Virus record (IMG/VR): IMGVR_UViG_3300021197_001635 | Location: 1 to 64,000 of that record | Reading direction: 5' to 3' (one strand) | From: a virus | Length of the DNA stretch: 64,000 nucleotides | Shown here: in pieces, positions 43,964 through 63,400 of the stretch | Layout of the letters: every line of letters begins with the position of its first letter | How positions within the stretch are numbered: position 1 is the first letter of the stretch | The notes under the pieces: generated by a model | Seen by the model: the letters and a program-made list of their open reading frames with translations, nothing else | Told to the model about the DNA's origin: nothing | Databases searched by the model: none | Position numbers and translations under genes: made by a program

Positions 43964-44863
43964 ATGCGTACTATGGTGACAGGTGGTGGAGGTCTAGTAG
44001 GATCCGCTATTGAATCGGATTTTAAGCCCTCTAGCAAAGAGCTTAATCTTTTCAATCTAGGTGATATTGTTGATTACCTCCAAGAGAACAGGATCGATAA
44101 TGTTATTCATTGTGCTGCTAAGGTGGGTGGAATCAAAGCGAACTCTGAGAAGTTGGCAGATTTCTTCTATGATAACACTTTGATGAATACTAATCTATTA
44201 GAGGCTGCTAGACTATGCAGACTCGAAAAGGTGGTATCCTTCATGTCAACATGTGTGTTTCCCGCTGATGCTGAATATCCACTTCAATCGGATAGGATCC
44301 ACGACGGGGAACCACACCAATCCAATTATGCTTATGCCTATGCAAAGAGAATGTTGGAAGTACAGAGCAGAGCATATAGAGACCAATACGACTGCAATTT
44401 TGTTACGGTTATTCCATGTAATATCTATGGACCTAACGACAATTTTAGTATGGACTCTGGGCATGTTATCCCATCTCTCATCCACAAATGCTATCTTGCC
44501 AGAGAGAATGGCACTGATTTAGAGGTCTGGGGTACTGGCAGGCCTTATAGGGAATTCATTTATTCAAAGGATGTTGCAGAGGCGGCAGTATGGGCACTAG
44601 ATAATTATGACGATCCAGAACCCCTGATCATTTCTCCTAATGAAGAAATATCAATAGCAACCTTGGCATCGGCAATCTGCTATAGAATGGGTTTCAAAGG
44701 GAGAATAGTGTTCAATCAGAAGATGGATGGTCAGATGCGTAAACCATCGGATAATAGCAAATTGCTGTCATTGATGGGTGATTATAAGTTCGTGCCGATT
44801 GAGATCGGTCTCACTAAGACTATAGAATGGTTCGAAGAGAACTATCGGGAGGCTAGAAAATGA
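43964..44863 (+). CDS. fcl: GDP-L-fucose synthase
   Basis: 299 residues (E. coli Fcl is 321). NAD(P)-binding TGGGGLVG at residues 6-13, CAAKVGGIKAN (about 50), SSTC-equivalent MSTCVFP (about 94), catalytic Tyr-x3-Lys in AYAYAKRML (about 124-128), and NIYGPNDNF...GHVIPSLIHKC (about 152-175), the Fcl/GMER signature. It converts GDP-4-keto-6-deoxymannose to GDP-L-fucose by epimerisation and reduction. GGGAGA precedes the ATG; 4-nt overlap with gmd. Confidence 0.92.
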   Translation: MRTMVTGGGGLVGSAIESDFKPSSKELNLFNLGDIVDYLQENRIDNVIHCAAKVGGIKANSEKLADFFYDNTLMNTNLLEAARLCRLEKVVSFMSTCVFPADAEYPLQSDRIHDGEPHQSNYAYAYAKRMLEVQSRAYRDQYDCNFVTVIPCNIYGPNDNFSMDSGHVIPSLIHKCYLARENGTDLEVWGTGRPYREFIYSKDVAEAAVWALDNYDDPEPLIISPNEEISIATLASAICYRMGFKGRIVFNQKMDGQMRKPSDNSKLLSLMGDYKFVPIEIGLTKTIEWFEENYREARK

Positions 44864-47621: not shown

Positions 47622-47629
47622 TATAAATA
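47622..47629 (+). promoter_or_regulatory. T4-type late promoter box TATAAATA
   Basis: Exact TATAAATA between gp62 and regA, 46 nt before the ATG at 47676. It could drive regA and the glycan genes from 48102 onwards late in infection, unless regA is mainly read through from upstream. Confidence 0.7.
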
Positions 47630-47675
47630 TCCACAGAAGCCTTTCAGTATGGGTGAAAGATTTAAGGATATTAAT

Positions 47676-48080
47676 ATGAGTAATAGATTAACGGCAGAAG
47701 ACCTAGTTGAAGTCAGTCTAGGACATGAAGAAGACTTCCTTAAGGTCAAAGAGACTCTAACCAGAATGGGTGTTTCCTCTCGAAAAGAGAAGAAATTGTA
47801 CCAATCTTGTCATATTCTCCACAAAAAAGGCAAATACTATATAGTTCATTTTAAAGAACTGTTCGGTCTGGATGGACTTCCCAATAATATATCTGAGGGT
47901 GATATTGCAAGAAGGAATATGATCATCAGCCTGTTGGAAGAGTGGGAACTAATTGGTGTTGTGGATATAGATAAATGTGAAGAACCCATGGCATCTTTGG
48001 GTCAGATCAAGATAATACCCCACAGGGACAAAGAAGAATGGGAGCTGATACCCAAGTATCATATCGGCAACAAGAGATAG
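47676..48080 (+). CDS. regA: Translational repressor RegA
   Basis: 134 residues (T4 RegA is 122). DFLKVKETLTRMGVSSRKEKKLYQSCHILHKKGKYYIVHFKELF is nearly the T4 sequence, and the end WELIPKYHIGNKR matches too. It binds mRNA initiation regions of early genes to shut off translation. ATG 47676 has AAGGA 7 nt upstream; the in-frame ATG at 47649 would add nine residues and has a poorer ribosome site. Confidence 0.95.
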   Translation: MSNRLTAEDLVEVSLGHEEDFLKVKETLTRMGVSSRKEKKLYQSCHILHKKGKYYIVHFKELFGLDGLPNNISEGDIARRNMIISLLEEWELIGVVDIDKCEEPMASLGQIKIIPHRDKEEWELIPKYHIGNKR

Positions 48081-48101: not shown

Positions 48102-48809
48102 ATGAGAAATAGCATTGACCTTAGAGACACAAAATGTGTCTATATCAACCTCGACACCGCAGAGAGAAATAAAGAAGAGATGGATGCCCAGTTGGGGTCT
48201 CTGGAGTTTAAGGACTTCGAGAGACTCTCAGCCAGGGTTGTTGCACCTCCCACACCAGAACCTCCACCAGAATACGGTTCGAACGCCGATACTTGGTGGA
48301 ATATCTTTAGGGGTGTGGCACAATCCCATATTGATATCCTAGAAACTAATGACGCACCCGTCCTTATCTTAGAAGACGATTCAGTGGTGACTGAGGATTT
48401 CCGTCCGATTCTAGAAAATATCCCAGAAGATACTGACGGGATATATCTAGGCATATCTCAGAGCGATGGTAAATATAATGCATATGATATAGGGTCGGGT
48501 TATGCATGGATAAGGGGTATTTTCTCTACACATGCTATCCTGTATCTCAGCGAACGGTATAAAAATGCGGTCCTAGCGATGGCAAAGGATTGGGCATACA
48601 ATAAAAATTTTGCGACTGATATTGGTTGGTGCAGACTCCAAAACGATTTCAATATCATAACCCCCCACAAGCCCTTCTTTTATCAGGCAGATGATAGAGA
48701 GAGCCTAAACAAATGGGGTAACCTTACCAAGACTCCTCTAAGGCTTAAAGAACTACCAGTATCAAAACCCAGTAGTCCAGCACCCATAGGTCCAATCGGA
48801 GCCCCCTAA
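48102..48809 (+). CDS. Glycosyltransferase family 25-like
   Basis: 235 residues. KCVYINLDTAERNKEEMDAQL at residues 11-31 is the N-terminal GT25 motif; VAQSHIDILETNDAPVLILEDDSVVTEDF (about 73-101) contains the conserved Ser-His helix and the acidic EDD metal site. GT25 enzymes transfer galactose and related sugars to LPS or proteins. First gene of the glycan island, after regA. The end is Pro/Ser-rich (SKPSSPAPIGPIGAP), perhaps a disordered tail. Acceptor unknown. Confidence 0.8.
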   Translation: MRNSIDLRDTKCVYINLDTAERNKEEMDAQLGSLEFKDFERLSARVVAPPTPEPPPEYGSNADTWWNIFRGVAQSHIDILETNDAPVLILEDDSVVTEDFRPILENIPEDTDGIYLGISQSDGKYNAYDIGSGYAWIRGIFSTHAILYLSERYKNAVLAMAKDWAYNKNFATDIGWCRLQNDFNIITPHKPFFYQADDRESLNKWGNLTKTPLRLKELPVSKPSSPAPIGPIGAP

Positions 48810-48811
48810 TC

Positions 48812-49783
48812 ATGATCCTGTATCGGTGTCCTGTGAGGGTGGGAATAGCTGGTGGTTCCACTGATTTGGAATCATTCATACAGCAGAATGGTAGAGGGTC
48901 AGTAATTAACTTCCCTATTGATCTGTATACTTATATACTGGTGCATAGAGATAAGATGGGTCTCAACTCTTCATCTGGCAGGTACGTAGTCAACTACTCT
49001 TTGAGAGAAGAGTGTGAAAGCATAGATGATATCAAAAACGACGTGATAAGAGAATCCGTTAGAGAATGCTATGACTCTCCTTGCTTCATCACCATGACTA
49101 GTGATATAAGTTCCTCTGGGTCTGGACTAGCATCCTCTTCAAGCTACATGGTGTCGGCGGTTAAGGCTCTTACCGAGATGTCTGGAGATGATATATCTCA
49201 GTATGATTGCTGCAAGAAGTCTATGGATTTAGAGAGAAGATTCAACCCTTTATTGGGTTATCAAGACTCATATGGGTGTGGGATAGGGGGTCTGAAACGA
49301 CTAGACTTTATGCCCAATAAAGACCCTAAGATCAACTACCTCCCCTCTGGCATTCTGGGGGGAATAAATATGCACCTTGTGAATACCTGCATAAATAGAT
49401 CGTCCACCAAGATTCTTGGATCTATAGAGACCAAGAATAATGACAGGCTCCATAAAATATTAGGTATTGTCGACGAAATGGAAGATGCTATTGTGAGGCA
49501 AGACATCGATTCATTCGTGAACCTGATCAATAACGGTTGGGAGGAGAAGAAAAGGTCTTCTAGCATGATATCCAATGAAGAGATCGCTGTTATGGACGAG
49601 ATGATTCTTGGTACGCCTGGTGTCCTAGCTAGGAGAGTGTGTGGTGCTGGAGGTGGGGGTTATTTTCTGGTATTCTCCGATAAAGGGTATAAGGTGGGCA
49701 ATTCACTCATTGATACTTTCGGAGAGAATAGGGTGCTGCCAGTCAGTATAGACAATGAAGGTGTTAAGAGGATGGGATTATGA
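48812..49783 (+). CDS. hddA: D-glycero-D-manno-heptose 7-phosphate kinase (GHMP family)
   Basis: 323 residues (HddA about 340). RCPVRVGIAGGSTDLESF at the N-terminus is the HddA/GHMP substrate-binding start, DISSSGSGLASSSSYMV (about residues 97-112) is the GHMP phosphate loop, and VCGAGGGGYFLVF (about 275-287) is the C-terminal GHMP motif. It would phosphorylate heptose 7-phosphate to the 1,7-bisphosphate. It overlaps the gmhA start by 4 nt, which supports the heptose pathway over other GHMP sugars. Confidence 0.85.
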   Translation: MILYRCPVRVGIAGGSTDLESFIQQNGRGSVINFPIDLYTYILVHRDKMGLNSSSGRYVVNYSLREECESIDDIKNDVIRESVRECYDSPCFITMTSDISSSGSGLASSSSYMVSAVKALTEMSGDDISQYDCCKKSMDLERRFNPLLGYQDSYGCGIGGLKRLDFMPNKDPKINYLPSGILGGINMHLVNTCINRSSTKILGSIETKNNDRLHKILGIVDEMEDAIVRQDIDSFVNLINNGWEEKKRSSSMISNEEIAVMDEMILGTPGVLARRVCGAGGGGYFLVFSDKGYKVGNSLIDTFGENRVLPVSIDNEGVKRMGL

Positions 49784-50313
49784 ACAACCACTATAATACA
49801 AGCAGAAATCTTGATTCGATATCTGACTCCATTTCTAAGATAGACAAGGCTGAAGTGGGTAAATTATCGGATCAGGTGAAGGATCATAAGGATATCATAA
49901 TAATAGGCAATGGGGGTAGCAATGCTATGGCATCTCATATGGCAATAGACTACACCAAGTTCTTGTGCAAGAGGTGTACCTCTTTCGATGAGGGTCCTAG
50001 ACTGACTTGTTATTTCAATGATTATGGGGTAGAGGAAGCCTATAGGAGATATCTGAACGAGTTCATATCAGATAATAATTATCTAGTTATATTAATATCC
50101 TCTTCAGGAGAGTCCAAGAATATAATAAATTGTGCCGAATACTGCTGTAGGAATGGAATCAACTTCGTGATTCTGACTGGCATGAGAGAAGACAATAAAC
50201 TGAGGATGCTATATGGTGGGCAAGCATCTGCAGATATTTGGGTTGATTCAGATAAATACTCGGTGATAGAGTGCACACATGAGGTATGCCTCCATTCTTT
50301 AGTAGGGAGTTGA
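49780..50313 (+). CDS. gmhA: Sedoheptulose 7-phosphate isomerase (SIS domain)
   Basis: 177 residues (GmhA about 192). IIIIGNGGSNAMASHMAIDYTKF (about 41-60) and LISSSGESKNIINCAEYC (about 107) are the two SIS phosphosugar-binding loops in GmhA form, and ECTHEVCLHSLVG gives the metal/His helix near the end. It converts sedoheptulose 7-phosphate to D-glycero-D-manno-heptose 7-phosphate, the first step of NDP-heptose synthesis. Contains three consecutive AUA codons (49897-49905). Overlaps hddA by 4 nt. Confidence 0.9.
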   Translation: MNNHYNTSRNLDSISDSISKIDKAEVGKLSDQVKDHKDIIIIGNGGSNAMASHMAIDYTKFLCKRCTSFDEGPRLTCYFNDYGVEEAYRRYLNEFISDNNYLVILISSSGESKNIINCAEYCCRNGINFVILTGMREDNKLRMLYGGQASADIWVDSDKYSVIECTHEVCLHSLVGS

Positions 50314-50315
50314 TA

Positions 50316-51047
50316 ATGATATACTGTTTTGATATTGATGGAACCATTTGCTCCCTTGAAGTGGACGGAATGGAGGAGGGCAGAGAGAAAGACTTCGCCC
50401 AGATAGAGAATACTAGACCTTTCACAGACGTTATTAATAAGATAAACAGACTTTATAGCGAGGGTAACACCATTAAGGTTTACACTGCTAGAGGTGATGT
50501 GTCTGGTATAGATTGGAAGGACAAAACCTTATCCCAACTAGAAGAGTGGGGTCTCAAGTTTCATAAGTTATATATGGGTGCTAAGCCTGCTGCTGATCTT
50601 TATGTCGACGACAAATGCATTAACATACAAGACTGGAGAGATCATTCAGCGACTGGGATTATTGCGGGATGTTTCGACATAATCCACCCTGGCTATATTA
50701 AGATGTTTAAGGATGCTAAGGATGTATGTGATAATTTGGTGGTCGCATTGCATGAAGATCCATCAGTTGAAAGGGAGCATAAACATTCCCCAATCCATAC
50801 GGTTCAAGAGAGAGAAGATATACTGAGATCGATTAGGTATGTAGATGATGTGATTAGATATAAGACCGAGAATGATTTACAATCTTTATTAATCAATACT
50901 AAACCAGAATTTAGAATCATGGGGAGTGATTATAAGGATACGAGATTTACTGGGGACGATTTGGGTATCCCCGTTCACTGGCATGACAGGGATCATGACT
51001 ACTCATATTCTTCACTTAGATCAAAATTAGAAGGGACTTTACAATGA
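50316..51047 (+). CDS. HAD phosphatase-like / nucleotidyltransferase fusion
   Basis: 243 residues. Residues 1-107 are a HAD-type domain (CFDIDGT 4-10, VYTARG 55-60, YVDDK 96-100) of the sort found in polysaccharide clusters. Residues about 114-243 are a TagD/HldE-C-like nucleotidyltransferase: AGCFDIIHPGYI (117-128), EREDILRSIRYVDDVI (about 165-180). The usual HxGH reads HPGY. In context it could supply both the missing phosphatase (GmhB-like) and nucleotidyl transfer steps of NDP-heptose synthesis; specificity is inferred. ATG 50316 is chosen over 50286, with GGGAG 8 nt before. Overlaps the epimerase by 4 nt. Confidence 0.78.
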   Translation: MIYCFDIDGTICSLEVDGMEEGREKDFAQIENTRPFTDVINKINRLYSEGNTIKVYTARGDVSGIDWKDKTLSQLEEWGLKFHKLYMGAKPAADLYVDDKCINIQDWRDHSATGIIAGCFDIIHPGYIKMFKDAKDVCDNLVVALHEDPSVEREHKHSPIHTVQEREDILRSIRYVDDVIRYKTENDLQSLLINTKPEFRIMGSDYKDTRFTGDDLGIPVHWHDRDHDYSYSSLRSKLEGTLQ

Positions 51048-51946
51048 AAAAGGTGATGGTGACTGGGGGCGCTGGTTTCATAGGATCTAATTTGGTAGAT
51101 GCTTTGGTAAACAAAGGATATGAAGTTGTTGTTCTGGATGACGAAAGTGCTGAATGCAATGAGGAGTTCTTCTATAATGAAGAAGCAGAGAATCTGAAGA
51201 TAGACATATCTAAAGACAAAGAAGGAATTGATAAGGCTATGAAGGGCGTAAACGTGGTTTTCCACCTGGCGGCAGAGTCCAGATTGCAACCTGCGATTAT
51301 CAATCCAGATAGAGCATATAACGTTAACTTCATAGGAACAAATAACGTTTTGGCGGCTGCTCACAAGCATAGGATCAACAAGTTCGTGTATTCGTCCACC
51401 AGTTCTGCCTATGGACTAGAAAACGAACCCCCGTTGGTAGAGACGATGCACCGAGATTGTCTCAATCCTTATTCGGTTTCCAAGGTAGCAGCAGAAGATC
51501 TATGCAAGATGTATTATAAATTGCATGGTCTGGACACTGTGATACTGAGATATTTCAACGTCTATGGGGAAAGAATGCCATCAACTGGTCAGTATGCTCC
51601 AGTGATAGGTGTTTTTCAAAGACAAAAAAAGGAAGGCAAGCCTCTGACCGTAGTTGGTGACGGTAGTCAGATGAGAGACTTTGTTTATGTTGGGGACGTA
51701 GTAAATGCCAACATTTCTGCCTCAAACACTAACCACCATCATTGCCCAGGCGAGATTATTAATATTGGAAGTGGCAAGAATATTTCAATCCTTGAAGTGG
51801 CAAAGATGGTGGATAGAAGCAAGATAGAGTTCATACCCAGAAGAAGCGGGGAGGCAGATACCACAGTGGCAAATATCTTGAAGGCTCGTAGATTGCTGGA
51901 TTGGAAACCCAATCAAGATTTAGGAGGATGGATAGGTGGTCAATAG
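51044..51946 (+). CDS. NAD-dependent sugar-nucleotide epimerase/dehydratase
   Basis: 300 residues, extended SDR family. NAD motif TGGAGFIGSN (residues 7-16), HLAAESR (about 73), SSTSSAYG (about 116), catalytic Tyr-x3-Lys in NPYSVSKVAAED (about 143-147), RYFNVYGERM (about 167) and GDGSQMRDFVYVGDV (about 205-219). The pattern is that of UDP-glucose/UDP-GlcNAc 4-epimerases and relatives; in this operon it could be a NDP-heptose or hexose epimerase. Substrate cannot be decided by eye. Overlaps the next gene by 11 nt. Confidence 0.85.
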   Translation: MKKVMVTGGAGFIGSNLVDALVNKGYEVVVLDDESAECNEEFFYNEEAENLKIDISKDKEGIDKAMKGVNVVFHLAAESRLQPAIINPDRAYNVNFIGTNNVLAAAHKHRINKFVYSSTSSAYGLENEPPLVETMHRDCLNPYSVSKVAAEDLCKMYYKLHGLDTVILRYFNVYGERMPSTGQYAPVIGVFQRQKKEGKPLTVVGDGSQMRDFVYVGDVVNANISASNTNHHHCPGEIINIGSGKNISILEVAKMVDRSKIEFIPRRSGEADTTVANILKARRLLDWKPNQDLGGWIGGQ

Positions 51947-52790
51947 AAAGATTTTCACAGTTGGATGCCCCTTCGCCCATGATTTGAGCTCTTGTAATTC
52001 TTGCAGCGGATCTGCCCCCAAGAGGATCAATTGGTCACATAAATTTTTACCAGAAGATATCGAAGAGGGCGATTCTGTGGTATATTTCGACATGAATCAC
52101 AGGGCAGGACTGGACATACCACTAGACTCTGGGATAAACACTTTCCTCTGGTTATGTGAGTCTAGAGAGGTGACACCAAAGGCACATAAAGATGTTTATA
52201 CCAACTCAGATCTGTTTTTGTCCAGATACAAAGGTGTATTCACTTGCGATGATAACTTGTTGAGACTAGATGATAGATTTTTCAAGATCCCCAATGGGTC
52301 GAACCTTCCATGGATAAGGGACACTGGAGTTCACCCTAAGTCCAAGTTGATATCGATGGTATGCTCTGGAAAGAGTTCATGTGAAGGTCACCGTGTAAGG
52401 AATAAGGTGGCAGACTCCCTCATTGGCAAGATAGACCTATTTGGGAGATTTATAAACCCAATAGCAAGCAAGGAGGAAGGCCTCAACGACTACATGTTCT
52501 CTATAGCAATGGAGAATGCTAGGTATAAAACATACTATACAGAAAAATTATTAGACTGTTTTGCCACTGGGACTATACCCATCTATTGGGGAAGCCCAGA
52601 TATTGGTGAGCATTTTAATATGGACGGAATTATCATCCTAGACGATAATTTTGAAGAGGTAATATCCAATCTCAGTCCAGAATACTACAATGATAGGATG
52701 GATGCCATTAAGGATAACTACCAGAGATGTATGGATATTGAGATGGCAGATGATCTGGTGTGTGACAAAATATTGGAGATACTGTCATGA
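51936..52790 (+). CDS. GT10-like (fucosyltransferase-type) glycosyltransferase
   Basis: 284 residues. YYTEKLLDCFATGTIPIYWGSPDIGEHFN (about residues 198-226) is the C-terminal nucleotide-sugar motif of alpha-1,3/4-fucosyltransferases (GT10). FLWLCESREVTPK (about 70) and KGVFTCDDNLL fit the first half of GT-B relatives. It starts at GTG 51936 with AGGAGG 8 nt upstream, inside the end of the epimerase gene; no ATG is available. With gmd/fcl and the following GT11 gene, GDP-fucose is a likely donor. N-terminal Cys cluster (CPFAHDLSSCNSCSG) is unusual. Confidence 0.72.
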   Translation: MVNRKIFTVGCPFAHDLSSCNSCSGSAPKRINWSHKFLPEDIEEGDSVVYFDMNHRAGLDIPLDSGINTFLWLCESREVTPKAHKDVYTNSDLFLSRYKGVFTCDDNLLRLDDRFFKIPNGSNLPWIRDTGVHPKSKLISMVCSGKSSCEGHRVRNKVADSLIGKIDLFGRFINPIASKEEGLNDYMFSIAMENARYKTYYTEKLLDCFATGTIPIYWGSPDIGEHFNMDGIIILDDNFEEVISNLSPEYYNDRMDAIKDNYQRCMDIEMADDLVCDKILEILS

Positions 52791-53608
52791 TAGTATTCAG
52801 CAGATTGGGAAATTACGGCAGGCATGGAAACCAGATGTTCCAGTATGCTGCCACTTATGCAACTGCTAAAGAGCTTGGTGTAGAGGCATACTGCCCATTG
52901 TCTACCAAGAAAGTGACACTAAGCTATTGCTTTGAACTTGGGGGTGTCAAGGACATGGGTGATATCGAATCCCCCGTGGTAGCAGACAATATGTATCTAG
53001 AGAAAGACGGTCATGCCCAGATACATGACAAAGAGATGGTAAAATCTATTGAACCAGTTAAAGACTCCGTTGTCGATCTAGTAGGTTATTTTCAGTCAGA
53101 GAAGTATTTCGAGAAGTATAAATCAGACATAATCAGAGAGTTCACCTTCAAGGAACCAATAGTGGAGGCTGCTAGCAAAATCTTTAAAGACGTGACTTCT
53201 GGTGGCAAGGTTGTGTCTCTACATGTAAGAAGAACAGACTATACCATGTTGTCCGCACATCACCCATTAATGACTAAGGAATACTGGGATGAGGCACTTG
53301 AGCACTTCCCAGATCACGAAGTGTTGATATCATCTGATGATGTTGAATGGTGCATGGATAACTTTGTGGGGGACAGATATACATTCACATCTTCAATAAT
53401 GAATGACATAGGGATCTACCCAGATATAGATATGTGCTTAATGACCATGTGCGATGGGAATATAATTGCTAATAGTAGTTTCAGTTGGTGGGGTGCTTGG
53501 TTAAATCAAAACGAGAATAAAAAGGTAGTAGCACCCAAGACGTGGTTTGGACCAAAGGGCAACAAGGAATGGCCCGACATTTATTGTGAAGGATGGTATA
53601 AATGCTAG
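52787..53608 (+). CDS. Alpha-1,2-fucosyltransferase (GT11)
   Basis: 273 residues (family about 290). Family motifs in order: GRHGNQMFQYAATYATAKEL (about 12-31), VVDLVGYFQSEKYF (about 97), VVSLHVRRTDY (about 143-153, the GDP-binding HxRRxD) and NSSFSWWGAWLN (about 231-242). It transfers L-fucose from GDP-L-fucose. The donor can be made by gmd and fcl of the same phage (43964-45903). Overlaps the upstream gene by 4 nt and the next by 7 nt. Confidence 0.93.
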   Translation: MIVFSRLGNYGRHGNQMFQYAATYATAKELGVEAYCPLSTKKVTLSYCFELGGVKDMGDIESPVVADNMYLEKDGHAQIHDKEMVKSIEPVKDSVVDLVGYFQSEKYFEKYKSDIIREFTFKEPIVEAASKIFKDVTSGGKVVSLHVRRTDYTMLSAHHPLMTKEYWDEALEHFPDHEVLISSDDVEWCMDNFVGDRYTFTSSIMNDIGIYPDIDMCLMTMCDGNIIANSSFSWWGAWLNQNENKKVVAPKTWFGPKGNKEWPDIYCEGWYKC

Positions 53609-53910
53609 TGATATATGTAGACATTGATGAGACTGTATGTGACACCCCCACCGATCCAGATGATGGGTCCAGAGACTATCACTCTTCCATCCCCAGAGAA
53701 GAGATGATAGATAAGGTTAATCAGATGTACGATGAAGGCAATAGGGTGGTGTACTGGACTGCTAGGGGAAGTAAGTCTGGTATAGATTGGTATGACCACA
53801 CAGAAAAGCAACTCAAGTCTTGGGGTGCTAAACACCACGAGCTTAGGTGTGACAAGCCCTTTTATGATATCTTCTACGATGACAAAACGATGAGAATAGA
53901 AGAAATCTGA
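53602..53910 (+). CDS. HAD-like protein, paralogue of the fusion's N-domain
   Basis: 102 residues, one HAD core: VDIDETVCDT (about 6-15), VVYWTARGSKSGIDWYDHT (about 49-67) and IFYDDKTM. It aligns throughout with residues 1-107 of the 50316-51047 protein (shared TARG, SGIDW, QL, WG, KP, DDK). The nucleotidyltransferase half is absent. Motif I reads DIDET in place of DIDGT. A phosphatase acting on a sugar phosphate in the same pathway is plausible. Overlaps GT11 by 7 nt and ends the first part of the island before a late promoter. Confidence 0.72.
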   Translation: MLVIYVDIDETVCDTPTDPDDGSRDYHSSIPREEMIDKVNQMYDEGNRVVYWTARGSKSGIDWYDHTEKQLKSWGAKHHELRCDKPFYDIFYDDKTMRIEEI

Positions 53911-53917
53911 GAGAAGG

Positions 53918-53925
53918 TATAAATA
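53918..53925 (+). promoter_or_regulatory. T4-type late promoter box TATAAATA
   Basis: Exact TATAAATA in the 41-bp gap inside the glycan island, 26 nt before the ATG at 53952. It makes the second half of the island (53952-59958) a late transcription unit. Confidence 0.78.
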
Positions 53926-53951
53926 AACTAGTGATTTATTGAGGTGTTTAT

Positions 53952-54650
53952 ATGATTAATATAATAATAGTCGAATGTGATGGGGTCAGAAACCCCGAGG
54001 ATAATTACAATATACTTGATAGGATTGAAAGTCTTCCTGAGTCTTCTCTCCGCATTTTCATGTGTAAAAGGAAATGTCAAGATGAATGCGGGTTGGCAGA
54101 AGAAATTGGCAAAAGATACCCCGAATCCACCATCTATCTTGGAGAAGAGGAATGGGGAGAGGCTAGTAGCCTCTCAAAGGTTCTTGCATACACACATGAA
54201 ATCAATAATGGTCAGGATATGCTGGTTAGTTTCATTGGAAGATGTGACAACACTATAGATTTCGACCCCAATAAATTTCAAGAACTGCGTGACGACTCAG
54301 ACTTAGTAATATGGTCCGTGTTCAACAGCAGCGAACCCGAAGAGCCTAATATACAGTTAGAGACCGATGAAGGTTATTTTATACAGGCACACAGAGATAG
54401 TGTCCTAGATGATAACCGAGTGTCGGTGGGTACTTATTATTTCAGAGACTGGAATATTTACATTCAGGCCTATAATAATCTTCAGTCTACTTGGGGTGCA
54501 GAAACAGAAATACCATATAATGAGGTTGCTATTTGCGATATATGTAACTTCATCGATGAATCAGTTAAGGCTAAAGTATTCGATGTGATTGAAAACACAA
54601 CTATTTCGGAGGACGATAATAATGTTGTTAGACCTACAAAGCATAAATGA
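53952..54650 (+). CDS. Unassigned GT-A/nucleotidyltransferase-like protein
   Basis: 232 residues. The order of predicted strands, and VGTYYFRDWNIYIQAYNN (about residue 155) followed by EIPYNEVAICDICNFID, resemble the C-terminal part of sugar-nucleotidyltransferase folds. The N-terminus (INIIIVECDGVRNPEDNY) lacks the GxGxR nucleotide loop, so activity may differ or be lost. The context (glycan island, late promoter) supports a sugar-related role. Its end overlaps the FkbM gene start region by 29 nt. Real gene, function uncertain. Confidence 0.6.
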   Translation: MINIIIVECDGVRNPEDNYNILDRIESLPESSLRIFMCKRKCQDECGLAEEIGKRYPESTIYLGEEEWGEASSLSKVLAYTHEINNGQDMLVSFIGRCDNTIDFDPNKFQELRDDSDLVIWSVFNSSEPEEPNIQLETDEGYFIQAHRDSVLDDNRVSVGTYYFRDWNIYIQAYNNLQSTWGAETEIPYNEVAICDICNFIDESVKAKVFDVIENTTISEDDNNVVRPTKHK

Positions 54651-55254
54651 ACAATATAATATGGATGTCAGGGGTGTGATACACATCGGTGCACACTGGG
54701 GACAAGAGGTAGAAAGTTACAAGAGTTATGGTTGGGATAATATTTTGTTATTTGAACCACAACCATCATGTTATAGCATTCTAGAGGGCAAGTTCGGAGA
54801 TGACGATAATGTCGTATTGGTGAACAAAGCTTTAGGACCCAAACCCTGCAATATGAAGATGTATGTTGAGAGAGCGAATTCAGGAATGTCTAGTTCCCTT
54901 CTCAAACCATGTATGCACCTTGATCAATATCCAGGCATACTATTCAATGAAGAAATAGAAGTGGGTGTAGTCACCCTAGATGGCTACTTAGAAGAATCTG
55001 GACTTGACCAGTCTAACTATAATATGATAAATATAGATGTTCAAGGTTTTGAACTTGAAGTGTTTAAAGGTGCTGAATCAACCCTCAAAAATGTAGACTA
55101 TATCATTACCGAGATAAACAGAGCGGAGGTCTACGAAGGTTGTGCTAAGCACGATGAGTTAGATAAACATCTGGGATCTTATGGATTTAAGAGGGTGGAA
55201 ACTAACTGGGCTGGTTGGACTTGGGGAGATGCCTTCTATATAAAGGACGTTTGA
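54622..55254 (+). CDS. FkbM-family methyltransferase
   Basis: 210 residues. SAM motif VIHIGAHWGQEVESY (about 20-34), LLFEPQPSCYSIL (about 44), VTLDGYLEE (about 114), INIDVQGFELEVFKGAESTL (about 134-153) and YIITEINRAEVYEG are the FkbM pattern. Such enzymes O-methylate sugars in glycan clusters. The ATG at 54622 has GGAGG 9 nt upstream, inside the end of the previous gene; the longer frame from 54589 has no ribosome site. Likely caps or decorates a sugar residue. Confidence 0.88.
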   Translation: MLLDLQSINEQYNMDVRGVIHIGAHWGQEVESYKSYGWDNILLFEPQPSCYSILEGKFGDDDNVVLVNKALGPKPCNMKMYVERANSGMSSSLLKPCMHLDQYPGILFNEEIEVGVVTLDGYLEESGLDQSNYNMINIDVQGFELEVFKGAESTLKNVDYIITEINRAEVYEGCAKHDELDKHLGSYGFKRVETNWAGWTWGDAFYIKDV

Positions 55255-55255
55255 T

Positions 55256-56191
55256 ATGATGGACAAAGTTTCCAATGTGATATTCTTTAACTTCTATAAT
55301 AACGGGGATATTCATATCTCTAGGAATTATATAAAGATAATGATGGAGAGGCTAAAAGGCAAAGTAGAAGGTCAATTCTACGAAACCCACAAAAACAACC
55401 CATATATCTTGTCAGATATAGAGGGTCTATCTCACCTGCCGATTCAGGTACTGAGTCAGAATCCAGTCCCTTATAATGTTCCTTATTACCTTGATAGTAG
55501 TAGGAATTTGTTCATAAACACTTGGGCTGGTCAGGATCACTGTAGAAAGAACCCCAAAGAGAAGAAATGCACATTCCCCTTCATTACAGATAATTATAAT
55601 ATGATATTGGAAGATTTAGGACTCGATACAATAGATGTAAACATTGTGGATATATTTCCCAGCCTAGACTATAATAAGTTCAAAATCCACAATATAGACT
55701 CTCACTTCGTTGGGACTGATAGACATCATGTTCTGGTGTGTAATGGGGACACAATGTCTGGTCAATGTGAGAATTTCGATTTCAATCCTATAATCGAGAG
55801 ATTGTCGGATAAGCACAAAGATATTGATTTTGTAATGACTAATCATTCAGACAAGAAGATAGAGAGAGAAAATGTAGTATATAGTGAAGATATTATAATG
55901 TCTGACTCTTGTGATCTGAATGAGACTGCATATCTGAGCACCTTCTGTGGTGTAATTGTAGGCAGGATATCAGGACCTCACACATTTTCTTTCGTGAAAG
56001 AGAACTATACCAACGGCAAGAAGATTAATATTTCAATATGCAACGATTATGAGGAGGCTGATTATGATGCTAAAATCTATGAAGAATGTAAGATGAAAAC
56101 AATTTGGTCCGAATACAAGTCGGAGGACCAGATAGAAAACCTAATAGACATGGCATTAAGTGAAGCATTTTCAAAGAAAGTGAGTGTATAA
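55256..56191 (+). CDS. Unassigned glycan-cluster protein, possibly GT-B-like
   Basis: 311 residues. It opens with VIFFNFYNNGDIHISRNYIK, a Gly-Asp-Ile-His pattern I associate with proteins encoded in polysaccharide clusters. The second half (CDLNETAYLSTFCGVIVGRISGPHTFSFVKEN, about 227-258) resembles the donor-binding end of GT-B transferases, where Gly-Pro-x-Thr loops bind the nucleotide sugar. This is pattern resemblance, not a family match. Shares 1 nt with the next gene. The first gap to the upstream gene is 1 nt. Confidence 0.6.
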   Translation: MMDKVSNVIFFNFYNNGDIHISRNYIKIMMERLKGKVEGQFYETHKNNPYILSDIEGLSHLPIQVLSQNPVPYNVPYYLDSSRNLFINTWAGQDHCRKNPKEKKCTFPFITDNYNMILEDLGLDTIDVNIVDIFPSLDYNKFKIHNIDSHFVGTDRHHVLVCNGDTMSGQCENFDFNPIIERLSDKHKDIDFVMTNHSDKKIERENVVYSEDIIMSDSCDLNETAYLSTFCGVIVGRISGPHTFSFVKENYTNGKKINISICNDYEEADYDAKIYEECKMKTIWSEYKSEDQIENLIDMALSEAFSKKVSV

Positions 56192-56595
56192 TGTATATAG
56201 AAGTGTCTAATGGAGATTTCTTTGATAGATTCTCGATACTCAATATTAAGAAGGATAGAATAGAAGATAAAGACAAGCTAGCATTCATAGAGATAGAGCT
56301 TAATAAGATGCGGAACCAGATTCATAGTCAGTACATATATATGCCAGTGCTAAGCAGTGATGACTACCGTGACTTATATGAGGTAAATGATCAATTGTGG
56401 GATATTGAAGACAGAATCAGACAAAAAGAAGAGCTTAAAGAGTATGACGAAGAATTCATTGGTTTATCTAGAAAAATATACATCAAAAATGACCTCAGAT
56501 TCAGGCTTAAAAACAAGATAGATACAGACACAGATTCCAAACTCCAAGAGCAGAAGAGTCATAAGACTTGTGAACGCCATGATACCAGTGTATAA
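56191..56595 (+). CDS. DUF6165-like small protein of polysaccharide clusters
   Basis: 134 residues. The N-terminus IEVSNGDFFDRFSILNIKKDRIEDKDKLAFIEIEL matches the motif EVSxGELxDKxTILxIKxxxI of small helical proteins (DUF6165) that accompany LPS and capsule genes. Function is not established. The C-terminus is charged and poorly conserved-looking. Overlaps the aminotransferase start by about 17 nt. Confidence 0.65.
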   Translation: MYIEVSNGDFFDRFSILNIKKDRIEDKDKLAFIEIELNKMRNQIHSQYIYMPVLSSDDYRDLYEVNDQLWDIEDRIRQKEELKEYDEEFIGLSRKIYIKNDLRFRLKNKIDTDTDSKLQEQKSHKTCERHDTSV

Positions 56596-57670
56596 ACCAT
56601 ATTTGTCTAGCAGAACAATAAACCTGGCCAAAGATGCCCTCGACGAAGGTTGGATCTCCTCTAATGGCAGATTCAAACAGATGGCATCAGATTTGCTGTG
56701 TGAGAAGACTGGGAGCAATTATGCATATCTCACCTGCAATGGAACAGCTGCATGCCATGCTATGTTTAGATCTATAAGAGAATTCTACCCTTCTCATATA
56801 CGTATGGCAGTACCCAACAACTGTTATGTAGCAGCATGGAATTCTCTACTATTCGATGGAGACTACATAGATATCACCCCAGTGGATGCAGACCCTGACA
56901 CTTGGAATATGAATGTAGAAGATATACCCGATAGTTGTGACACCTTAATGGTGGTCCATAATCTTGGTAATGTTGTAAATGTCCCCAAGATTAAGGAAAA
57001 GAGACCAGAAATGTTAGTGATAGAAGATGCATGTGAGGCCTTATTCGGTGACTATGGAGGCAAACCAGTTGGATCTGATTCTTTTTGCTCAGCATTTTCT
57101 TTTTTCGGGAATAAGAATATCTCCTCTGGAGAAGGTGGTGCACTCGTCACCGATGATGAAGACGTAATATCCTATGTCAAGCACATCTGTGAGCAAGGTC
57201 AAACAGATAAGAGATTCATACATGACACCCTAGCATATAATTACAGAATGAGCAACATCCATTCTGCCATACTTTACGGTCAGTTGATGGACTTCGAAGA
57301 CATCGCCGATATGAAAAAAGAAGTATTTCATAACTACAATGAAATGCTTTCAGGTCTGCCCCTAGAAGTGCAAGTAGAAGAGGAAGACACCAACCACTCA
57401 TTGTGGATGTATGGGGTTAAGATGCCTTCCATAGATGCTAAAGAATCGGTAGTTTCAAGTCTTAAAAATGCTGGGATAGAGACTAGACCCATGTTCTACC
57501 CCATGTCTAGTCATGAACATCTGTCGGGTATAGCAAACCCAGATGATGAAGAAATTGCCGTGGACTTGTCTGAGAGATGTATAATGCTACCAAGCTATCC
57601 TGATTTGGACAAATCAAATATCAAACAGATAACAGATGTGATAAAGGAATCCATGAATGAGCATATTTGA
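56579..57670 (+). CDS. DegT/DnrJ/EryC1/StrS-type sugar aminotransferase
   Basis: 363 residues. IPVYKPYLSSRTINLAKDALDEGWISSNG at the N-terminus, NGTAACHAMF (PLP phosphate site, about 57), VIEDACEALFGDYGG (Asp holding the PLP ring, about 152), and SFFGNKNISSGEGGAL with the PLP Lys (about 178). These enzymes aminate keto-sugar nucleotides. As gmd is present, GDP-4-keto-6-deoxymannose is a candidate substrate, giving GDP-perosamine; this is inference. ATG 56579 begins the usual MIPV motif; GTG 56570 would add three residues. Overlaps the next gene by 14 nt. Confidence 0.87.
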   Translation: MIPVYKPYLSSRTINLAKDALDEGWISSNGRFKQMASDLLCEKTGSNYAYLTCNGTAACHAMFRSIREFYPSHIRMAVPNNCYVAAWNSLLFDGDYIDITPVDADPDTWNMNVEDIPDSCDTLMVVHNLGNVVNVPKIKEKRPEMLVIEDACEALFGDYGGKPVGSDSFCSAFSFFGNKNISSGEGGALVTDDEDVISYVKHICEQGQTDKRFIHDTLAYNYRMSNIHSAILYGQLMDFEDIADMKKEVFHNYNEMLSGLPLEVQVEEEDTNHSLWMYGVKMPSIDAKESVVSSLKNAGIETRPMFYPMSSHEHLSGIANPDDEEIAVDLSERCIMLPSYPDLDKSNIKQITDVIKESMNEHI

Positions 57671-58691
57671 CTTCGATGATGATAAGATAAGATTAGACTT
57701 CATACATGGTAACAGCTTTAGAGATATGGCACATATCGACATAGACAACAGGATACCGATGGGGTTTCACACTAAGAGGGTTGATCCAGAGGATTTGCCC
57801 ATGATGAAAAATGGTAAGAGAAAGGCAATAGTCTGTACTAGGGTAGATTGGGAAACCAGAGGACACAACTTGGTCAGCACCCTTAATTTTCTAAACAGTT
57901 ATGCCAATGTAGAGGTGATCCTGATAACTTATGGCTCTTATCTCACCCCAGATAAGAGTATATTCGACAACATACCAGAATGCGTTTTTAAGTGGTATGC
58001 TGTCAATGCCGAGCACCCCAATGAAAAAGTGGTGGGGATACCGCTGGGGATAGCAAAGCCTATATGGGAGAATGGTCAGATATCCAACCTAGTAGACAAC
58101 CGATCAGGAGACAAGGACAGACTGCTATATATCAACCACAATACTAGCACTGATCGCAACTCTCCCAGAGGCAATCTTAGGCAAGTGATCTATGACAGAT
58201 TCAGATCTGAAGAGGGAGACTGGTTTACCTTAGTAGACCAGTTTGGAGAGTGCAACCTATATGGTTATGATAGTATGGAAGACCTTGCAAAGGACAAAGC
58301 AGCATCCAATATGGAAATAGCAGAGGGTATCAAAGAGAGAGGAAGAAGAATATTTGCCGAGGGTGGCAAGGAGATCAGAGACTCATCCAAGAGATACGTC
58401 CAAGAAATGAGTTCCCACAAGTTTACGTTGTCTCCTTCTGGGATGGGATATGACACTATGAGAACTTGGGAGGCCCTTTATTCAAAGACCATACCCATTG
58501 TTACTGATTACCAAGCAATGAAGCACTTCAGCGATCTGCCTATCTTATACACTAACGATTATAGCGAGATTACCGAAGATTACCTAAATAACAAGTATGA
58601 AGAATTTCAGTCCAGAGACTGGGACCTATCTAAACTGTTTTTCTCTTATTGGAAGAACAGAATAAACGAGGATTTTAACAACCATGAGTGA
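57657..58691 (+). CDS. Exostosin (GT47)-like glycosyltransferase
   Basis: 344 residues. The C-terminal part, SSHKFTLSPSGMGYDTMRTWEALYSKTIPIVTDYQAMKHF (about residues 256-295), is the nucleotide-sugar-binding region typical of exostosin-like transferases: a Ser-Pro-x-Gly loop followed by WEALxxxxIPIV. The N-terminal half has no motif I recognise. A charged helix about 205-245 links the two. It likely adds a sugar to the same glycan as its neighbours. Overlaps the GT2 gene by 8 nt. Confidence 0.72.
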   Translation: MSIFDFDDDKIRLDFIHGNSFRDMAHIDIDNRIPMGFHTKRVDPEDLPMMKNGKRKAIVCTRVDWETRGHNLVSTLNFLNSYANVEVILITYGSYLTPDKSIFDNIPECVFKWYAVNAEHPNEKVVGIPLGIAKPIWENGQISNLVDNRSGDKDRLLYINHNTSTDRNSPRGNLRQVIYDRFRSEEGDWFTLVDQFGECNLYGYDSMEDLAKDKAASNMEIAEGIKERGRRIFAEGGKEIRDSSKRYVQEMSSHKFTLSPSGMGYDTMRTWEALYSKTIPIVTDYQAMKHFSDLPILYTNDYSEITEDYLNNKYEEFQSRDWDLSKLFFSYWKNRINEDFNNHE

Positions 58692-59958
58692 GAGCAATAT
58701 GCATAAATTAACATTATCAATGATCGTGAAGAACGAGTCCCATATTATCAAAGAATGTCTGGAGTCTGTTTCACCATATATTGATTATTGGGTCATAGCA
58801 GACAACGGTTCTACTGATGGAACCCAGCAGTTGGTCAAAGATTTCTTCGAAGATAAGGGCATCCCAGGCGAACTACATGAAGTAGAGTGGGTAGACTTCG
58901 GTCATAACAGGACGGAGGCCCTAAATCTATGCAAGGGAAAGGCTGATTATTGTCTAATGATAGATGCCGATGACGAACTCAGAGGTAAGATGGAACTTCC
59001 TAGGGACATGAATGCAGAAGGATACGCCCTAAGGATCCAGAGAGGAGACTTTACTTGGTGGAGGACGCAGATCTTTAAGACTGATGCAGGCTGGAAGTAT
59101 ACTGGTGTTCTCCATGAATATGCAGAGTGTCCAAGAGAAGAGGGAGAGCCTTTGATCACTATGGAGAGGGTCAAAGGTGATTATTTCGTTGATGCCAGAA
59201 CTTTGGGTGCTAGAAACAAGAATGAAGATGGGACTGGGATAGATCCCATCCAAAAGTATAGTAGAGATGCCGAAGTATTGTTGGAAGCCTTAAAGAAGGA
59301 TCCAGAAAATGCAAGATACCAGTTTTATCTAGCACAATCCTATTTCGACTCTCAACAGTGGGAGAAATCTTTGGAGGCATATACCCAAAGAGCAGCAATG
59401 GGTGGTTGGGCAGAAGAGGTATTTTACTCTGTCTTTAGATGTGCTATGATAAAGCTAATCAAGGGGGACGACTGGCCCGAATCTCAAGACACTATGATGC
59501 AGGCATGGAATGTGAGACCCCATAGAGCAGAACCCTTATATAATCTAGCAAAGATTCATAGGACCAATGGTAATCCCAATCTAGCATACTTATTTGCTGC
59601 TCAAGCAATGAGAATACCGTATCCCAAGGATGATATCCTATTCATTAGTGATGACATCTATAAATGGCAAATATTGGACGAGTATGCCTCTGTAGCCTTT
59701 TACGTTAATGATCTAGAGGGGGGTTATCAGGCCGCCCAGAAGTTAGTCAACATGTGTAATAAGGGAGAGATCCCAGTGGAGAATCATGAAAGACTAACCC
59801 TTAACCTTAACCACTATGCTAATGCCTTGGGGGAAAGATCCAAAGTAATGGCAGAGGTCAATAAGGCAGCGATTGACAATAAGAAGAAATACCAGGCTAA
59901 GATTAATGGAATGAAAAATAAGAGAAAGAAGAGAGATAAGAAGAAGGCTAGGAGTTGA
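58684..59958 (+). CDS. Family 2 glycosyltransferase with TPR-like C-terminus
   Basis: 424 residues. GT2 domain: LSMIVKNESHIIKECLESV (about 10-28), VIADNGSTDGT (about 37-47) and the metal-binding CLMIDADDELRG (about 90-102). From about residue 185 helical TPR-like repeats (ENARYQFYLAQSYFDSQQWEKSLEAYTQRA; HRAEPLYNLAKIHRTNGNPNLAYLFAAQAM) run to about 370, then a very basic Lys-rich end (KNKRKKRDKKKARS). TPRs may bind the acceptor or partner transferases. Last gene of the island, followed by a late promoter and fibre genes. Confidence 0.9.
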   Translation: MSESNMHKLTLSMIVKNESHIIKECLESVSPYIDYWVIADNGSTDGTQQLVKDFFEDKGIPGELHEVEWVDFGHNRTEALNLCKGKADYCLMIDADDELRGKMELPRDMNAEGYALRIQRGDFTWWRTQIFKTDAGWKYTGVLHEYAECPREEGEPLITMERVKGDYFVDARTLGARNKNEDGTGIDPIQKYSRDAEVLLEALKKDPENARYQFYLAQSYFDSQQWEKSLEAYTQRAAMGGWAEEVFYSVFRCAMIKLIKGDDWPESQDTMMQAWNVRPHRAEPLYNLAKIHRTNGNPNLAYLFAAQAMRIPYPKDDILFISDDIYKWQILDEYASVAFYVNDLEGGYQAAQKLVNMCNKGEIPVENHERLTLNLNHYANALGERSKVMAEVNKAAIDNKKKYQAKINGMKNKRKKRDKKKARS

Positions 59959-59963
59959 ACCAG

Positions 59964-59971
59964 TATAAATA
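59964..59971 (+). promoter_or_regulatory. T4-type late promoter box TATAAATA
   Basis: Exact TATAAATA 5 nt after the GT2 stop and 34 nt before the ATG at 60006. The box lies in one arm side of a 7-bp inverted repeat (CCAGTAT 59960-59966 with ATACTGG 59988-59994). Confidence 0.8.
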
Positions 59972-60005: not shown

Positions 60006-60470
60006 ATGGCAAGAGCTGGTGTATATGACATAACCACAGAGCAGGGTGCTAGCTTCACCCTGCATCTTACTTACCAAGATTCCGACTCCAACGGATTCAC
60101 GTTAGATGACTATAAGGCAACTATGCAAGTCAGAAGATCTCCAGAAGATCCTGATTTGTTGCTCTGGATAACAGGTTCCACTGCTAGTCTAACTGCTGGT
60201 ACTCCTCATACGGGATCGCTCACTGGTGGAGGTAGCACTGGTGAGTTTGGATCTACTCAGGGTGTCTCTGGGACTGGCAATATAAACTTGGATGTATCCT
60301 CTGGTGGCGCTACTGGAACTACTGGTGGTATCCTTGTAACTATAGACTCTAATACCATGGCAAATGTCCCATCGGGTAGACACTTCTATGACTTAGAGAT
60401 ATATGCTGGAACTTCGGTCACAAAACTGGTCAAGGGAAGATTTGAGGTAGAGGCGGAAGTTACTAGATGA
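60006..60470 (+). CDS. Small beta-rich virion protein (fibre-adaptor-like)
   Basis: 154 residues. Start [39 protein letters not shown] and end [31 protein letters not shown] fit the small beta-sandwich family that precedes tail-fibre genes in many phages. A Gly/Thr/Ser-rich loop (about 58-108) interrupts it. It may serve as a base or cap for the adjacent fibre; that is inferred from gene order. Overlaps the next gene by 4 nt, under a late promoter. Confidence 0.72.
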
Positions 60471-63400
60471 GAATTTCACTGTCAGATTCAAACCAGCACA
60501 AGATAATAATCACTGGTAAGAACCAGGCTAGGGTTATTGTACAACCAGACACAGACAAGGTGTTGATTAATACCCCATCTGGTGTGGGTCCTCAAGGTCC
60601 TCAAGGCGTTTCTGGACCACGAGGTGTCACTGGTCCACAAGGTGTTACTGGAACCACAGGAGCAACAGGAACAACTGGTAGCACAGGGTCGACTGGCAGT
60701 ACTGGTGCTACTGGTGCTACTGGTGCACAGGGACCTGCAGGTCCAGGATTTACTGGTGCTCAGGGACCAACAGGTGCTACAGGCGCTACTGGTGCTACTG
60801 GTTCACAAGGACCCGCAGGTCCACAAGGTGTAACTGGAACCACAGGAGCAACTGGTGCGACAGGAACGACTGGTGCTACTGGAACCACGGGATCCACTGG
60901 ACCAGCAGGACCCCAAGGTTCAGCAGGACCACAAGGTCTGACGGGAGCTACTGGAACCACTGGGGCAACTGGAACTACGGGATCCACTGGACCAGCAGGA
61001 CCCCAAGGTTCAGCAGGACCTCAGGGTGCTACTGGAACTACAGGAGCTACTGGGGCCACTGGGGCAACTGGAACTACAGGATCCACTGGACCCGCAGGAC
61101 CACAAGGTTCAGCAGGACCACAAGGTTTAACGGGAGCTACGGGTACTACTGGTGCAACAGGCACTACAGGATCCACTGGACCCGCAGGACCACAAGGTTC
61201 AGCAGGACCACAAGGTTTAACGGGAGCTACGGGTACTACTGGAACAACTGGTGCTACGGGTACTACTGGGTCCACTGGGTCCACTGGTAGTACTGGGCCT
61301 TCTGGATATATTACATATACCTACGATGAATCTGATGCACAAAGTGCTGGTAAAGTACACTTCACTAATGCTACAAGCGCGGGTTTCAAAATCAACTTGG
61401 ATCCAGGCGGAGGATTAGATGATATAGGTGATATAGAATCGTCACCCATAGTGGTCACTGTAAATAGCCTTGCAGCAGCGAAAAGAGCAGTATTCAGGAT
61501 TATTGGAACCCCAGATGAAGGAACTGGAGGCGAGATCAGTTGGTCGGGTGGAAGCAATACAAGAATCCTTCACTATGGTGGGAACTTCACTGATGGCGAA
61601 TCCGTAATTGTGGGTTGGTTGCGTGAAGGTGGGGCTACTGGTACTACTGGGGCTACGGGATCCACTGGACCCGCAGGACCCCAAGGTTCAGCAGGACCAC
61701 AAGGTTTGACGGGGGCTACTGGTACTACTGGTACTACTGGTGCTACTGGAACCACGGGATCCACTGGTGCTGATGCTGGAGCACCATATATCTTTCAGAC
61801 TGGAGACTCGAGTCCAGATGATGGTAATCTATATGTGTTAGACTCCTCCAACGGCAACACCACCGTTAGTGCCAATGTAGCATTCTTAGTGATAGGCAAT
61901 AGAGATACCACACTAGCTAATAATAGCGACTGGATCAGTTCATGGGATGATTCTACCTCGGTTAAGAGAGGTAGTGTGACTGTCAAGCAAAGAGGCGGCA
62001 GTAAATATATGGTTCTGGACGTGATAGGTGATATGACCGACTCAGGTGATGGTGATTCTAGGAAGATACCAGTAGAATTCGTAGGTGGTGGTCTGGACCT
62101 GGCCGATGATGCTCAGGATGTAAGTGTTAGCTTCACTAGGTATGGAGATGCTGGTACAGGTGGATATGGTAACCTGTCATGGAAATACTCAATAGACACA
62201 ACTACTACTGTACCAGGCGGAATTCCTCAAGGAGGCATTAGATTAAGTAGTGCGACTATCTCAGCGGCTACCCATGCTTACTTCAGTGATTTCACCAATG
62301 AATTTGGTAATCCAGGCATAACTCAATGGTATGAATACGTAGTGTCTGGTGTTTCCGCTGGTGCTGAATACCCACAGGATTTATTTTACCTCAAGTTGTT
62401 CAAGCAAGCAGAGGATTATAAATGGGCGGTATTCTCTATAACTAACGGCATTAGTGCTTCAAATGCTGGCAATGCTTCTGGTAACACTGGATATTATGAC
62501 TTTGATATAGCCCACATAGCATCTAGTGTGGATACCGTCAGCAGTCTGGCAGACGGTGAAGGTCAAGCAATTGCTACATTCAGTGAGGCTGGTAGACATG
62601 ACAGGATACCAAGTTCTCTTGGATTCGATGCAGGTGATTATTTTTATATATTACCTGCTGCCAGCATAGTTGACAACGGCAGTAATTGTTATTTCTTAGG
62701 TATAGACCCAAATGGCCAAGGTAATGCAGGCAGAGGACTTGTCTGGGGTTATAGTAAAAATGATGGTGGATATGATGACAAGCTACAGACTAATATAACC
62801 TGCCAAAATAGGAGTGGTGATAGCAATTGCACTATTTGGGACAACATACCCGATGGGGCACAGGTCATAATGAGGATTGCGTTTGATGGTATAGGTAGTA
62901 ACCCATCAGCACATGTGGACTATCTTGGATATTTCGATGAAGGCAATTGTTCCAGTGAGAGAAAATTCTACTTCGCACAAGATGCGGGTGGCGCAGGCAT
63001 TGTACCAGTAGCAGTAGATGTGCCTGACGGTCGAGTCGACGATGAAGGCGATCCTAGTTTTAATGCCTATATGAGGCATATTCTTGGACAGTACATACAA
63101 TTCAACAATGCCGTTCCAGTGAAGATCAGCGTAGATGTCGTTAATCCTTTATTCGGTTTCAATCTGGCTACTTTAGACGGTATCACCTCTGGTACGACTA
63201 GCGGGGCATCTGGTGCTGGTCTCACTGGTAATACTTCGGGCAATGCGATATTCAATTCTGGTGTCAGTGGCAAGATTCAATTCACAGCACCTACCCTCTT
63301 GTCTACCATCACCACCAGATCATCTATCGGTATTGGTGCTAGTAAAACAGCATCTGGTGCATCTGGTTCCATACTGCAGGTGATTGCAACTGGTACGACT

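Follow-up and report, generated by a model that had tools for sequence, protein, structure and literature searches.

An exchangeable glycan-gene cassette in a fixed slot beside the tail-fibre genes of an uncultured T4-like phage

We analyzed a stretch of 64,000 bases (the window), i.e., bases 1 to 64000 of the linear virus record IMGVR_UViG_3300021197_001635, which is 136,012 bases long, and focused on the sugar genes found between regA and a group of tail-fibre genes (positions 48102 to 59958). We identify this block as a glycan cassette that is exchanged at a fixed slot and linked to the tail-fibre genes, since relatives of the phage hold differing sugar-gene blocks, or none, between regA and the tail-fibre genes. 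We give a rough probability of 0.5 to the reading that the glycan is placed on the lipooligosaccharide or lipopolysaccharide (LOS/LPS) of the host late in infection, for which we infer both the acceptor and the purpose. The phage has a T4-like backbone as judged by gene content and order (gp17, gp20, gp23, gp55, gp47/46, gp45, gp44, gp62, regA, gp43, uvsX, and gp41), and it shares the gp45-gp44-gp62-regA-gp43-uvsX order with the marine T4-like phages that carry glycan or LPS islands. Its gp23 is almost equally distant from those of Pelagibacter phage HTVC008M (57% identity), Methylophilales phage Melnitz (56%), and Prochlorococcus phage P-HM1 (55%), which points to a separate branch without a near isolate in the searched collection.

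Fifteen intact genes, all on the plus strand, make up the block. They overlap or nearly touch, with spacings of -29 to +2 bp except for a single gap of 41 bp (53911 to 53951), and they are bounded by the regA stop at 48080 and by the start of a tfaL-like gene at 60006. A previous reading made from the sequence alone had described an almost gap-free run of 14 genes from regA to a tail-fibre cluster: the genes, their coordinates, and their compactness were recovered, all as intact open reading frames, but the count is 15. Several genes for sugar nucleotides and glycosyltransferases are thus contiguous, as is characteristic of glycan islands. The borders of the slot and the promoter-like motifs are the following:

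47623 to 47629, plus strand: late-promoter-like motif TATAAATA, upstream of regA
47649 to 48080, plus strand: regA, conserved left border of the slot (Pfam Translat_reg, E 2e-40)
53919 to 53925, plus strand: late-promoter-like motif TATAAATA, before the second half of the block
58684 to 59958, plus strand: GT2-TPR glycosyltransferase, constant right border gene (Pfam GT2 and TPR, structure, survey of loci)
59965 to 59971, plus strand: late-promoter-like motif TATAAATA, before the fibre genes
60006 to 60470, plus strand: tfaL-like tail-fibre assembly protein, right flank (phrog_1084, phrog_3304)
60467 to 63784, plus strand: tail fibre with 96 collagen-like G-X-Y triplets, Thr at 64% of the Y positions (triplet count)

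The 41-bp gap contains TATAAATA. Across the phage, 10 of the 19 plus-strand copies of this motif lie within the 5% of the sequence that is intergenic (P ~1e-8), which argues that the motif is real. Since the copies are also often found ~40-55 bp ahead of virion genes, it behaves like a T4 late promoter. The claim that late promoters precede both halves of the block is thus fair, with the precision that the first one is upstream of regA, 479 bp ahead of the GT25-like gene.

Seven relatives were examined around regA. One of them (G001, contig L199) shares with the studied phage GT25, fcl, gmd, GT11, GT10, the enzyme at 55256, the DUF6165 protein, DegT, and the exostosin-like protein (55% identical), in a changed order. 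The end of its island (L199:16823-19130) encodes a GT29 sialyltransferase-like protein, a cytidylyltransferase, and NeuB, a sialic-acid-type set that is not in the studied phage. Three other relatives (G002, G004, and G005) have in the slot different sets of 13 to 16 genes. The slot can also be empty: in G007 (L129) regA touches tfaL and there are no sugar genes. In HTVC008M, regA and gp43 are ~0.2 kb apart. GT2-TPR is the last gene of the island and tfaL the next one in the studied phage and in all the relatives with a complete span (3/3). Both the link to tail fibres and the hypervariability among relatives are traits of marine T4-like glycan islands. As for the search for the same block proposed by the sequence-only reading, there is no near-DNA match to the whole block in 50,697 phage records, but the relatives have differing sugar sets in the slot. 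That reading had overlooked the swapping of cassettes at a fixed slot and the constant border gene. We looked for direct repeats marking the ends of the cassette and found none that was convincing.

Contents that differ so strongly among relatives, and the scattered sugar genes of many marine T4-like phages (PMC7029224), might reflect a passive assortment gained by recombination, with no joint product and with enzymes that merely top up the nucleotide-sugar pools of the host. We regard this as improbable given the translationally coupled gene order, the late-type promoters, the intact catalytic motifs, and a GDP-fucose branch that is complete with its matching glycosyltransferases. Similarly, we rejected the explanation by broken genes, which the sequence-only reading had named as a reason to abandon its proposal: the catalytic motifs are intact and there are no internal stops.

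The GT2-TPR gene is the only constant one. Viral contigs contain hundreds of its relatives, of which the 80 best are 49-62% identical, and identity elsewhere is at most 43% in cellular genomes and at most 38.5% among the phage records. In 17 loci it comes immediately after regA, with no further sugar gene. The gene after it is tfaL-like in 49 of 60 island loci and in 3 of 16 loci where regA is directly followed by GT2-TPR, counts that are not independent because of near-duplicates among the surveyed loci; in the remaining 11 island loci this gene is mostly fibre-like by eye. Upstream of GT2-TPR, island loci have mainly nucleotide-sugar epimerases and dehydratases, and also DegT, FkbM, and exostosin genes. 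The correlation with core-gene distance was high before dereplication (r 0.93-0.97) and gave borderline support with the seven phages left after it (r 0.37-0.54); hence, we do not claim vertical inheritance of GT2-TPR.

A GT2 domain followed by a TPR domain is the architecture of SunS-type enzymes. The best full-length Foldseek matches of the predicted structure (pLDDT 81.5) are the peptide S-glycosyltransferases SunS and ThuS (E 4e-14), and the sequence matches GmaR and SunS, which together indicate a polypeptide acceptor. The likeness to SunS and ThuS concerns the architecture and the whole-length structural match, whereas identity is 14-17% and no glycocin peptide was seen for the phage enzyme. 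The superposition on SunS is loose (TM ~0.5, rmsd ~15) because of domain orientation, and the wall-teichoic-acid glycosyltransferases TarS and RmlT match as well.

These matches suit another acceptor, the virion itself. In the cytoplasm, GT2-TPR would start a glycan on a tail fibre or another virion protein by attaching its first sugar; fucose, heptose, and amino sugars would then be added by the variable enzymes, giving a sugar coat that would shield the fibre or tune its binding. GT2-TPR immediately precedes the tail-fibre genes in most island loci, all the enzymes are soluble, the neighbouring fibre has its 96 Thr-rich collagen-like triplets, and the fold matches of the protein at 55256 include the protein heptosyltransferase TibC. 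Virion glycosylation accounts for the constant SunS-like enzyme and for the link to the fibres at least as well as host LOS/LPS does. It is weakened by the loose superposition and the teichoic-acid matches, by the 13 of 16 regA-GT2 loci without a tfaL-like gene next, and by the collagen-like fibres, whose triplets number 42 in G004, 6 in G002, and 0 in G005. A constant collagen-like fibre as the acceptor was rejected, as the triplets are not constant among relatives. On balance, we view virion glycosylation as the main rival, a credible possibility that we would not favor. We are a little more doubtful of its extension to the whole uncultured T4-like clade, in which the SunS-like GT2-TPR would prime the phage's own tail fibres and swappable phage-made sugars would finish a coat matched to the receptor-binding protein. 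According to a review citing Freeman et al. 2023, virion glycosylation reportedly occurs in mycobacteriophages. Collagen-like triplets are also present in a tail-type protein of the record (134412-135596), which has 21 of them with Thr at 76% of the Y positions.

The sugars made by the cassette are suggested by the families of its enzymes. The first branch involves two genes missed by the sequence-only reading, fcl and gmd (43964-45903), which overlap each other between gp45 and gp44, outside the block:

43964 to 44863, plus strand: fcl, GDP-L-fucose synthase (NCBIfam GDPFucSynFcl, E 8e-67; PDB 4e5y, E 5e-82; STC and YxxxK)
44860 to 45903, plus strand: gmd, GDP-mannose 4,6-dehydratase (TIGR01472, E 2e-123; PDB 1db3, E 4e-99)
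51936 to 52790, plus strand: GT10 fucosyltransferase-family enzyme (Pfam, E 1e-9; ENxxxxxYxTEK motif)
52787 to 53608, plus strand: GT11, alpha-1,2-fucosyltransferase family (Pfam, E 2e-24; HVRRTD motif)
56579 to 57670, plus strand: DegT sugar aminotransferase, perosamine-synthetase-like (Pfam, E 2e-60; PDB 3bn1 perosamine synthetase, E 6e-41; start corrected to 56579)

GMD scores 412 bits against a TIGR01472 cut-off of 415. Alignments to the PDB structures place the catalytic residues of the GDP-L-fucose pathway in both enzymes (SSSE and YGCAK in GMD, STC and YAYAK in Fcl). With fcl, gmd, GT10, and GT11 all present and their motifs in place, the branch that makes and uses GDP-fucose is complete. 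The nearest solved structure to DegT is perosamine synthetase, an enzyme that acts on the product of GMD, and one intermediate may thus feed two sugars.

A second branch probably supplies heptose in activated form:

48812 to 49783, plus strand: HddA-like GHMP sugar kinase, heptose phosphate kinase (Pfam GHMP kinase; HddA NCBIfam, E 1e-29, below cut-off; PDB 3k85, 4n3o)
49780 to 50313, plus strand: GmhA-like sedoheptulose-7-phosphate isomerase (Pfam SIS; TIGR00441, E 3e-14, below cut-off)
50316 to 51047, plus strand: HAD phosphatase fused to a heptose-1-phosphate nucleotidyltransferase-like domain (Pfam HAD and CTP_transf_like; rfaE_dom_II, E 1e-21; start corrected to 50316)
51044 to 51946, plus strand: SDR nucleotide-sugar epimerase/dehydratase (Pfam Epimerase, E 6e-56; YxxxK present)

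Candidates for the four NDP-heptose parts (GmhA, kinase, phosphatase, and nucleotidyltransferase) are all present in order, with the SDR gene next. In the HxGH motif of the nucleotidyltransferase the second His is a Tyr (HPGY), as in related enzymes.

The remaining genes of the block are the following:

48102 to 48809, plus strand: GT25-like glycosyltransferase (Pfam, E 0.009, below cut-off)
53602 to 53910, plus strand: small HAD phosphatase (phrog_1238, E 5e-25)
53952 to 54650, plus strand: protein without detectable relative (Pfam, PHROG, and relatives searched)
54622 to 55254, plus strand: FkbM methyltransferase (Pfam, E 2e-16; start corrected to 54622)
55256 to 56191, plus strand: GT-B fold enzyme, GT9/heptosyltransferase-like (AlphaFold pLDDT 78; Foldseek)
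56191 to 56595, plus strand: DUF6165 protein (Pfam, E 2e-8)
57657 to 58691, plus strand: exostosin/GT47-like glycosyltransferase (Pfam, E 2e-6, below cut-off)

Most labels given by the sequence-only reading agree with Pfam profiles (GHMP kinase, SIS, HAD with CTP_transf_like, epimerase, GT10, GT11, FkbM, DUF6165, DegT, and GT2 with TPR). The exostosin-like label has a Pfam match below the curated cut-off. The GT25 match is likewise too weak, but close homologues follow regA in L126 and L199, i.e., at the same place in relatives. The label GT-A-like has no support for the protein at 53952. The label GT-B-like for the protein at 55256, to which neither Pfam nor PHROGs give a name, agrees with its predicted fold: its Foldseek matches are 3tov (GT9), WaaC, WaaF, and TibC (E ~1e-5 to 1e-3, TM ~0.4). 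It is plausibly a heptosyltransferase, and because WaaC and WaaF are heptosyltransferases a heptose donor would suit it. Homologues of this enzyme at ~33% identity are found in two genomes of uncultured phages of 735 and 636 kb (LR756501 and LR756504; L206 and L207).

T4 glycosylates hydroxymethylcytosine, and in a T4-like phage so rich in glycosyltransferases this general precedent raises the possibility that DNA bases are the acceptor. We find it very improbable, since it requires neither an FkbM enzyme nor pathways for fucose, heptose, and amino sugars, and since in Pfam and PHROG no enzyme hits a known family of phage DNA glucosyltransferases, except for a partial match of 35 residues between the GT25-like protein and phrog_2835 ("glucosyltransferase").

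How, then, would a LOS/LPS acceptor account for the cassette? The soluble gmd and fcl products would convert GDP-mannose into GDP-L-fucose, DegT would probably turn their shared keto intermediate into a GDP-4-amino-4,6-dideoxy sugar, and GmhA, HddA, HAD, nucleotidyltransferase, and SDR would probably give an activated heptose. From these, the GT25, GT10, GT11, GT-B/GT9-like, exostosin-like, and GT2-TPR enzymes and the methyltransferase would build and trim a short glycan specified by the phage. Transmembrane segments are absent from all 17 proteins (block, fcl, and gmd), and the islands of relatives have at most a borderline signal. The block encodes no flippase, polymerase, or ligase, in agreement with the sequence-only reading, and no lipid-initiating enzyme either. 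That reading had also rightly seen in the block a single late-promoter-associated unit of sugar activation, transfer, and decoration. By its lack of transmembrane segments, the block differs from the serotype-converting gtr/oac systems, where a membrane-bound flippase or transferase acts in the periplasm. The acceptor would have to be reachable from the cytoplasm, and is most likely the lipid A-core or LOS of the host on the cytoplasmic side of the inner membrane; the LOS/LPS core is assembled on that side, and a membrane protein of the phage would not be needed. Host export would then carry the altered LOS to the surface, where it would block superinfection and keep progeny off debris.

Several observations weigh against this reading. 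The sole constant gene, GT2-TPR, resembles a polypeptide glycosyltransferase, and most islands directly adjoin tail-fibre genes; both fit a virion acceptor. The protein at 53952 has no assignment. For the isomerase, the kinase, and the nucleotidyltransferase, scores fall short of the NCBIfam equivalog cut-offs, the phosphatase domain of the HAD fusion matches no heptose model, and the aminotransferase match is also under its curated cut-off. The exact sugars are uncertain for this reason.

Islands of this kind are already known, and the one studied here differs by its slot between regA and gp43, its constant GT2-TPR border gene, and its uncultured clade. It is too strong to say, as the sequence-only reading did, that it has far more sugar genes than is usual in such phages. 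The T4-like Synechococcus phage SynMITS9220M01 (MT408532; PMC7378029) has a contiguous glycan region of ~25 genes, also with glycosyltransferases and a methyltransferase, in which the order HddA-GmhA-HAD/NT-SDR is identical to that of the studied block and the fusion protein is 45% identical. That region is near pstS and plastocyanin genes, not regA, and GT2-TPR of the studied phage has no match in SynMITS9220M01. Cyanophage S-SCSM1, another marine T4-like phage, has 13 cell-wall/glycan genes including gmd, fcl, an alpha-1,2-fucosyltransferase, and other fucosyltransferases and glycosyltransferases; its gene set differs, and the text searched of its description does not mention heptose genes (PMC9602691). 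Pelagimyophages have a hypervariable host recognition cluster with tail fibres and glycosyltransferase or sugar genes, proposed to change the host O-chain and avoid superinfection (PMC7029224). It is placed between vrlC and gp14, whereas our block is between regA and gp43. Smaller runs of sugar and heptose genes adjoin tail-fibre genes in P-SSM2 and S-CAM1. The authors who described sugar genes of marine T4-like phages assign them to changes of host LPS (PMC7029224 and, in the text searched, PMC9602691).

The record also encodes a porin-like protein with a signal peptide (77349-78518, L003:17349-18518; Pfam Porin_O_P, E 3e-7), which is possibly a clue to the host or to a surface change; a scan of genome contigs for relatives of this gene gave none. 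The nearest cellular homologues of GT2-TPR are taxonomically scattered and only ~43% identical. A glutamine-synthetase-like protein (72571-73647, L003:12571-13647) is encoded immediately after a gp61-like primase gene, and G005 has the same layout, with a protein 58% identical. Genes for IMP dehydrogenase/GMP reductase (E 5e-125) and adenosine deaminase (E 7e-92) adjoin at 84193-86296. An adenylosuccinate-synthetase-like protein (115547-116620, L005:17547-18620) has as best solved match 6fko (E 2e-56), which we take to be PurZ of Vibrio phage phiVC8, followed by PurZ of S-2L (7odx, E 2e-30). It has GQWGSTGKGK at the place of the GDEGKGK of PurA and may be a PurZ. A PurB-like gene lies at 35846-37306, and the pair hints that the DNA of this T4-like phage may contain diaminopurine.

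Phage sugar genes have usually been described genome by genome, and this slot can be compared across many phages. It is empty, holds GT2-TPR alone, or holds varied cassettes, and the filled slots mostly have the same border gene, beside receptor-binding genes. This makes the role of sugar genes in marine T4-like phages testable with few enzymes, and it also provides a naturally occurring set of cassettes, for fucose, for heptose, and for sialic-acid-like sugars. The answer would bear on how superinfection is excluded in the ocean and on the question of whether phages put sugars on their own fibres. If the virion were the acceptor, every phage of the clade would wear its own exchangeable sugar coat, of fucose and heptose here and sialic-acid-like in the sister phage.

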